From Candidatus Altimarinota bacterium (GTDB lineage: Bacteria; Patescibacteriota; Gracilibacteria; UBA4473), in the NCBI GenBank assembly GCA_023143095.1, contig JAGLIF010000006.1, positions 62,001 to 126,000 on the forward strand: 64,000 nt of DNA, written 5' to 3'. Position numbers and translations under genes: made by a program. Positions 62,617 to 64,000 of this stretch are shown piece by piece. The stretch's first letter is position 1; every line of letters begins with the position of its first letter. The notes under the pieces were generated by a model, which was not told the DNA's origin, ran no database searches, and saw nothing but the letters and a program-made list of their open reading frames with translations.

Positions 62617-63606
62617 TTATACTAATGCTGCTAACTCTACTAATCGACAAGAATATCCCCACTCGTTATCATACCAAGCTAAAACTTTCACCATATCTCC
62701 AATTACCATCGTTTCTGCGGCATCTACAATAGATGACCTCGAATCACACAAAAAGTCTGAAGATACTAACGGACGAGTTTCATATCCAAGCACTCGCGGA
62801 TTAGCTTTTGAAGCTGCCTGCAATACCTCATTTATCTCTTCTTTCGTGGATTCTTTGGAAATTTTTATTACCAAATCTACCAATGAAACGGTTGGTGTTG
62901 GCACTCGAACTGAAATCCCATTCAATTTCCCTGCCATTTCTGGTAAAACAAGTCCCACCGCTTTCGCTGCTCCTGTTGTCGTCGGAATAATATTTACTGC
63001 CGCTGCTCTCGCTCGTCTAAGATCACTATGTCCTACATCCAAAAGTCGTTGCCCATTAGTATAAGAATGAATTGTCGTCATCAGACCCGAAATAATTCCA
63101 AATTTTTCATGTAATACTTTTACCACTGGTGCCAAGCAATTTGTTGTACACGATGCATTCGAAAGAAGTGTTTCGTCCCCTGTAAGAGAGTCTTCATTTA
63201 CCCCCAAAACAACGGTAGTGAACCCTTCTCCTTTTCCTGGAGCAGAAAGTACTACTTTCTTGGCACCTTGTACCAAATGCTTCTCCGCTGTTTCTTTTGT
63301 TCGAAAAACTCCTGTACATTCCAAAACAACATCTATTTTTAAATCTCCCCATGGCAAATCTTCAATATTTCGCGTCGCAAAGTTTTTTACCTTATGTCCA
63401 TTAATATTAAGATTATCATCTTTTTCCAAAGAAATTTCTCCGTTAAACTTTCCAAAATTTGTATCAAACATAAAAAGATGCATCGTTTGCTCCGTTGGAG
63501 AAGGATCATTGATTGCTACTAGTTCCAAGTCTGAACTATTCAAAATAATTCGTGCAGCCGCTCTCCCAATTCGACCAAATCCATTAATGGCTATTCGTTT
63601 TTTCAT
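62617..63606 (-). CDS. gap: Glyceraldehyde-3-phosphate dehydrogenase
   Basis: 329 residues. NAD-binding GFGRIGRAAARI, the catalytic ASCTTNCLAPV with Cys, and GKLNGISVRVPTPTVSLVDL are diagnostic. It oxidises GAP to 1,3-bisphosphoglycerate in glycolysis. Asp in INDPSP at the end of beta-2 suggests NAD preference. A minus-strand TATAAT (63643-63638) lies about 32 nt upstream of the ATG. No other glycolytic gene is adjacent. Confidence 0.97.
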   Translation of the reverse strand: MKKRIAINGFGRIGRAAARIILNSSDLELVAINDPSPTEQTMHLFMFDTNFGKFNGEISLEKDDNLNINGHKVKNFATRNIEDLPWGDLKIDVVLECTGVFRTKETAEKHLVQGAKKVVLSAPGKGEGFTTVVLGVNEDSLTGDETLLSNASCTTNCLAPVVKVLHEKFGIISGLMTTIHSYTNGQRLLDVGHSDLRRARAAAVNIIPTTTGAAKAVGLVLPEMAGKLNGISVRVPTPTVSLVDLVIKISKESTKEEINEVLQAASKANPRVLGYETRPLVSSDFLCDSRSSIVDAAETMVIGDMVKVLAWYDNEWGYSCRLVELAALV

Positions 63607-63671: not shown

Positions 63672-63700
63672 TTGACTTTTTTTCTTAAGAAACATATTAT
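63672..63700 (+). promoter_or_regulatory. thrS promoter TTGACT-17-TATTAT
   Basis: The -35 is at 63672-63677, the -10 at 63695-63700, spacer 17 bp. Transcription would start near 63707, three bases before the leader-peptide ATG. Confidence 0.75.
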
Positions 63701-63709
63701 TTCTCTGTT

Positions 63710-63754
63710 ATGCGAACTATTACGACTATTCTTACTACAACGAAAACCGATTAA
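63710..63754 (+). CDS. Threonine-rich leader peptide of thrS
   Basis: A 14-codon ORF encodes MRTITTILTTTKTD and ends TAA. Seven of 14 residues are Thr, using ACT, ACG, ACA and ACC. It starts about 9 nt past a good promoter and ends 28 bp before a terminator hairpin in front of thrS. Composition and position are those of an attenuation leader like ThrL of E. coli, where the ribosome stalls at Thr codons when charged tRNA-Thr is scarce. Confidence 0.82.
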   Translation: MRTITTILTTTKTD

Positions 63755-63758
63755 TTTC

Positions 63759-63807
63759 GGCAGTTTTGGTTACGCATCAATCCTGCCAATTCGTTTTGGC
63801 AGTTTTT
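63759..63807 (+). terminator. thrS attenuator: antiterminator arm and terminator
   Basis: The terminator pairs CTGCCAA (63783-63789) with TTGGCAG (63796-63802), followed by TTTTT. An upstream GGCAG (63759-63763) can pair instead with the same CTGCC (63783-63787), forming an antiterminator. CCGA at the end of the leader ORF (63747-63750) can in turn pair with TCGG (63757-63760) and free CTGCC for the terminator. The three alternatives are mutually exclusive, as in classical attenuators. Confidence 0.8.
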
Positions 63808-63874
63808 AAGGAAAAAATTTTTATAAAAAAATTACCAATCTTTCCTTCTCCTTATTTTCTTTTCTCTTTTTCAA

Positions 63875-64000
63875 ATGAGTAAAAATGATCTCGAAATCCG
63901 AAGACGACACACTGCATCTCACCTTATGACAAAAGCCATAGAAATGTGTTTCCCTGATACCAAAATTCACTTAGGAGTAGGACCATGGACTGATGAAGGC
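63875..64000 (+). CDS. thrS: Threonyl-tRNA synthetase, 3'-truncated by window edge
   Basis: Only 42 codons are visible. They begin MSKNDLEIRRRHTASHLMTK and continue AIEMCFPDTKIHLGVGPWTDEG, the start of the ThrRS/AlaRS editing-type domain (the RH-x2-SHL and IGP-x-EDGFY region of other ThrRSs). The ORF therefore starts where E. coli ThrS has finished its ~60-residue TGS domain, so that domain is missing. No Shine-Dalgarno precedes the ATG. Confidence 0.88.
   Translation, partial: MSKNDLEIRRRHTASHLMTKAIEMCFPDTKIHLGVGPWTDEG

Follow-up and report, generated by a model that had tools for sequence, protein, structure and literature searches.

The thrABC operon of Escherichia coli is preceded by thrL, which combines a Thr-rich leader peptide, alternative RNA pairing and a terminator. 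Leader-peptide attenuation has also been reported for aminoacyl-tRNA synthetase genes, including pheST in gammaproteobacteria and trpS and leuS in Streptomyces (PMC1262725), and a His leader at hisS/hisZ in Bacilli provides a case of attenuation at synthetase-family genes outside the Proteobacteria and Actinobacteria (PMC2965389). Several attenuators are leaderless. The transcript of S. meliloti trpL begins directly with the leader start codon (PMC7298713), leuL and trpL of Streptomyces are leaderless attenuators, and in S. lividans thrS follows a leaderless thrL that is annotated as threonine-dependent, one of several leaderless leaders in that species (PMC8079986). For Patescibacteria and the Candidate Phyla Radiation (CPR), our search of the open-access literature gave no previous account of leader peptides or attenuators. 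Here we describe a candidate threonine attenuator upstream of thrS in a patescibacterial genome and compare it with these systems.

Organization of the thrS upstream region

The window, which is the whole stretch of 64,000 nt analysed here (contig C8 of the patescibacterial genome G000, about 1.2 Mb), terminates within thrS. The gene is complete in its contig, where it encodes 586 amino acids (L003:476-2236). Its upstream interval lies between a divergent gap gene (start at 63606, minus strand) and the thrS start at 63875, and the following features were recognized in it and at the beginning of thrS:

63672-63700, plus strand: sigma-70-type promoter, TTGACT-17-TATTAT, with a predicted transcription start at about 63707
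63710-63754, plus strand: leader ORF MRTITTILTTTKTD followed by a stop, 14 codons with 7 Thr, without Shine-Dalgarno (SD) sequence, probably leaderless
63710-63777, plus strand: alternative 1:2 pairing of ATGCGAACTA with GGTTACGCAT, present in the MFE fold (shuffle test 10/300)
63759-63787, plus strand: antiterminator hairpin, -11.9 kcal/mol (9 of 1,000 shuffles as good)
63783-63807, plus strand: intrinsic terminator CTGCCAA-TTCGTT-TTGGCAG followed by TTTTT, regions 3 and 4, -9.7 kcal/mol
63875-64000, plus strand: thrS, threonyl-tRNA synthetase, first 42 codons (TIGR00418, 638.6 bits, cut-off 383.65)

The promoter, the 14-codon ORF with seven Thr codons, the GGCAG/CTGCC antiterminator and the CTGCC/GGCAG terminator with its T-run, all of which had been named in the earlier note, are present in the sequence. 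The distance given there, with everything within 140 bp of thrS, is slightly short: the leader start lies 165 nt from thrS, and the end of the T-run 67 nt. The promoter scan returned one promoter-like site against 1.4 expected from shuffles, so that this count alone is no better than chance.

The leader reads ATG CGA ACT ATT ACG ACT ATT CTT ACT ACA ACG AAA ACC GAT TAA (63710-63754), with Thr as its commonest residue. Its Thr count (7 of 14) was reached by the short ORFs of none of 1,000 dinucleotide shuffles of the 300-nt upstream region, and the ThrS protein itself contains only 6% Thr. In the antiterminator, region 2 (GGCAG, 63759-63763) pairs with region 3 (CTGCC, 63783-63787) around an inner 5-bp stem formed by TTGGT (63766-63770) and ATCAA (63776-63780). 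The terminator stem occupies 63783-63802, with region 4 (GGCAG) at 63798-63802, and is followed by five Ts. The middle CTGCC can pair with the first GGCAG or, over 7 bp, with the last GGCAG, but not with both. The 1:2 pairing, which is less well supported than the other stems (unevenly across leaders, p 0.003 to 0.46), would in the folding model conceal region 2 and the start codon if no ribosome were present.

Conservation within the family

The family was sampled with 20 genomes, 18 of which were readable at this position after G007 (no thrS match) and G009 (5' end of thrS cut) had been left out. A leader ORF with five to nine Thr codons stands upstream of thrS in 15 of the 18, examples of the encoded peptides being MKNTTTTTTTITE, MKSTTTTTTTTTE, MRNITTTTTTTHP and MINVTATTTTT, as well as MKTIATTTTTYTD, MFVSCTCTTTRTTG and MFAFPAIFTTTTTG. 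Although the peptide sequences differ, Thr is the commonest residue of nearly all homologous leaders. Likeness in Thr richness and in little else is the pattern to be expected where the codons count and not the peptide. G019 retains a degenerate leader with two Thr codons at the homologous position (MKNCATLTLIKKIA), and no leader was found upstream of thrS in G014 and G004; the leader is thus dispensable.

One extra gene separates the attenuator from thrS in G001 and G005, with leader and terminator intact before the longer operon. The G005 gene encodes an NYN domain (PF01936; L014:3356-3895, minus strand), and the product of the G001 gene (L012:3344-4003, minus strand) is visibly similar to this NYN-type protein. 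Lying between the Thr attenuator and thrS, the NYN-type gene would fall under threonine control. G001 also harbors a palindromic AAGTCCGGACTT-type repeat within the terminator loop (L012, minus strand, between the leader and the NYN-type gene), with both terminator arms preserved.

Co-variation of the pairing arms and geometry of the leader

Seventeen leaders were folded, 16 from the family and that of G051 from another family. In all 17, an alternative partner for the terminator's 5' arm begins 1-6 nt past the leader stop (region 2 positions are counted from 1, so that +5 in G000 means 4 nt between the stop and region 2). The antiterminators were equalled by at most 16 of 1,000 shuffles in 14 of the 17 leaders, the exceptions being G019, G010 and G016. 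Terminator arms were picked by eye; automatic choice had shortened several stems.

Arms of the CGGAGG/CCTCCG-like type are present in most leaders, and the others include GGCAG/CTGCC/GGCAG in G000, CTCGAAA/TTTCGAG/CTCGGAAC in G005, GGGATTTT/AAAATCCC/GGGATTTT in G001 and GCAGAGGGTA/TACTCTCTGC/GCGGAG in G051. When partners were permuted between genomes, the summed energy of the cognate duplexes was matched by 0 of 20,000 permutations, for 2:3 and for 3:4 alike, a signal that comes mainly from the divergent arm types because many relatives share the CGGAGG types. The relatives thus keep both the Thr-rich ORF and the alternative stems, a comparison whose outcome strongly favors the proposal in the earlier note that thrS would be controlled by stalling on the leader peptide.

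A ribosome at a stop codon covers about 12-15 nt downstream, and region 2 would therefore be covered. Codon 11 of the G000 leader ends at 63742 and region 2 starts at 63759, so that a stall at Thr codons 3-11 leaves region 2 free. The short, fixed distance from the stop to region 2 in all leaders is a requirement of ribosome-mediated control. This geometry, like the anatomy, its conservation and the co-variation of the three arms, was read directly from the genomes.

Translation start of the leader

In 16 of the 17 leaders, 6-10 nt separate the end of the best -10 box from the leader start codon (shuffle frequency about 0.06 per distance, about 0.29 for 6-10 nt together), and 16 of the 17 lack an SD-like motif before the start codon. 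This promoter spacing, together with the missing SD motifs, suggests that the leader is probably leaderless. In G000, the predicted transcription start at about 63707 gives a 5' UTR of about 3 nt, in line with the leaderless start put forward in the earlier note. The accompanying idea that leaderless initiation is itself the sensor is an overstatement: the sensor would be elongation across the Thr codons, with leaderless initiation only loading the ribosome.

Initiation independent of SD seems general in the lineage, and the missing SD of the leader is no special adaptation. An SD-like motif was found at the usual place before 0 of 61 ORFs of at least 90 amino acids in the window and its extension, with about 4-5 expected by chance (such motifs occur in 7.6% of random 13-mers of the window). 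The 16S rRNA of G005 ends in GGAUUAUCGCCUCU compared with GGAUCACCUCCUUU in the Rfam consensus, a degenerate anti-Shine-Dalgarno (L174:6850-7127), and the lineage may have lost SD-based initiation. The 16S rRNA of G000 was not found in the approximately 0.49 Mb of its genome that was read, where contig C10 starts inside the 23S gene. Among the window genes with strong promoter matches, a -10 box lies 2-10 nt before the start in 10 of 26.

Proposed mechanism and alternatives

The locus combines a Thr-rich short ORF, a terminator ahead of the gene, an antiterminator that excludes it and a downstream gene for the same amino acid, thrS. Judged from sequence, it very probably works by classical ribosome-mediated transcription attenuation, with the level of thrS expression following from how far tRNA-Thr is charged. 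We infer where transcription starts, that ribosomes stall on the leader, that transcripts end at the terminator or run past it, and that the system responds to threonine, and propose the following course of events. RNA polymerase would begin at about 63707, and a ribosome would load at the extreme 5' end, leaderless and independently of SD, and then read the 14-codon leader. When Thr-tRNA is plentiful, the ribosome would arrive at the stop and mask region 2, 4 nt past it, whereupon regions 3 and 4 would pair and transcription would terminate before thrS. When Thr-tRNA is scarce, the ribosome would stall at a Thr codon among codons 3-11 and stay at least 16 nt short of region 2, which would then pair with region 3; no terminator would form, and thrS would be transcribed. 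Without translation, the leader could pair with the post-stop segment, favoring termination. The evidence leans slightly toward a broader reading, in which a CPR lineage without SD-driven initiation would use a family-wide leaderless threonine attenuator as a main control of thrS, with transcription and translation coupled from the first nucleotide.

A second, weak promoter may be present between the terminator and thrS. The leader might also respond to an antibiotic or to slow translation in general instead of threonine, since any stall in the leader would free region 2 and the G000 leader contains two Ile codons and one Leu codon besides Thr; however, with Thr foremost in nearly every homologous leader and thrS as the downstream gene, a general sensor is very improbable. 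We consider it slightly less probable still that the product of the Thr-rich ORF is a small peptide acting in its own right. The short ORF does have its own promoter and a terminator, which would belong to that small gene, but the Thr content alone is conserved while sequence and length vary (MRTITTILTTTKTD, MINVTATTTTT, MFAFPAIFTTTTTG), the ORF stands before thrS or an operon ending in thrS, and the antiterminator, to which a small peptide gives no role, is conserved. Binding of the leader by ThrRS or another protein that represses its own mRNA, modelled on E. coli, where thrS autoregulation works through a tRNA-like operator bound by ThrRS with its N-terminal domains, is just as improbable, as Pfam shows no TGS domain in this ThrRS and the conserved elements are the Thr ORF and the terminator/antiterminator pair.

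Spread outside the family and specificity

Candidate threonine attenuators are also present outside the family. The scan took the regions nearest this ThrRS first, and the counts are therefore not unbiased frequencies: of 119 readable regions upstream of thrS in the class outside the family, about 13 carry a Thr-dense short ORF, in most cases followed by a terminator, and among 63 regions from the phylum's other classes, two are convincing and three more doubtful. The former comprise G051, G079, G066, G036, G035, G185, G106, G117, G193, G151, G269 and G158, with a less clear Thr leader and an unclear terminator in G081. The latter are G331 and G503, from two other patescibacterial families, in which a -10 box lies 6-9 nt before the leader start.

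Four of the class leaders are from family f14, where in-frame TGA occurs within thrS. An SD-like AAGGA precedes the leader in some f14 genomes, and thus not all leaders are leaderless. The leaders of G193, G158, G151 and G269 (L193, L195, L198 and L199; in-frame TGA) share an MSLAQL-like start. The Thr leaders of genomes with in-frame TGA could be an independent variant of this device.

Within G000, only one Thr leader with a terminator, that of thrS, was found on both strands of the approximately 0.49 Mb read from the 1.2-Mb genome. An ORF-plus-terminator detector picked up no cognate leader ahead of the family's pheS and trpS/tyrS genes or of the class I synthetase genes identified in G000, and the matches for other residues resembled chance. 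Thr leaders were looked for, and not found, before threonine-synthase homologues. Three such homologues in G000 exceed the TIGR00260 cut-off (L170:3123-5110, L171:4074-5837 and L172:4465-6180); a small kinase-like gene follows the one on L170 and also adjoins homologues in G003, G005, G013 and G019.

Rfam searches of the leader with a lenient threshold, and of the window with the gathering threshold, returned nothing relevant. A T-box was considered and gave no match with E up to 5 (L003:200-600); the contrast with Firmicutes T-boxes drawn in the earlier note has no direct bearing here, the organism being a patescibacterium. Elsewhere in G000, a SAM riboswitch (RF00162) was detected on contig C5 (L339:1271-1361, minus strand; 51.8 bits, cut-off 44.4).

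Comparison with known systems

If the proposed mechanism is true, the Candidate Phyla Radiation would join the Proteobacteria, Actinobacteria and some Firmicutes as a group with leader-peptide attenuation. Its cells, which are reduced and mostly uncultured, would then link transcription with translation and monitor the supply of amino acids through tRNA. The family would also provide a natural experiment on leaderless attenuation, in organisms seemingly without SD initiation.

The locus resembles E. coli thrL (thrABC) in its Thr-rich leader peptide, alternative pairing and intrinsic terminator, whereas thrL controls biosynthesis, has an SD sequence and senses Ile too, and no Rfam family matches here. 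E. coli pheM-pheST likewise represents leader-peptide attenuation of an aminoacyl-tRNA synthetase gene (PMC1262725), but responds to Phe instead of Thr and belongs to the gammaproteobacteria. The His leader of Bacilli differs in its amino acid, His, and in its phylum, Firmicutes. S. meliloti trpL and Streptomyces leuL and trpL share the leaderless start, but concern Trp or Leu in other phyla. S. lividans thrL is a leaderless leader ORF before thrS, as proposed here, with 2 Thr in 18 residues, no U-rich terminator and unclear termination (PMC8079986); by contrast, the G000 leader has 7 Thr, the terminator is clear and the antiterminator covaries. Every part has a precedent elsewhere, and the mechanism is therefore not new; what is new are the phylum, the strong thrS case and the family-wide conservation.
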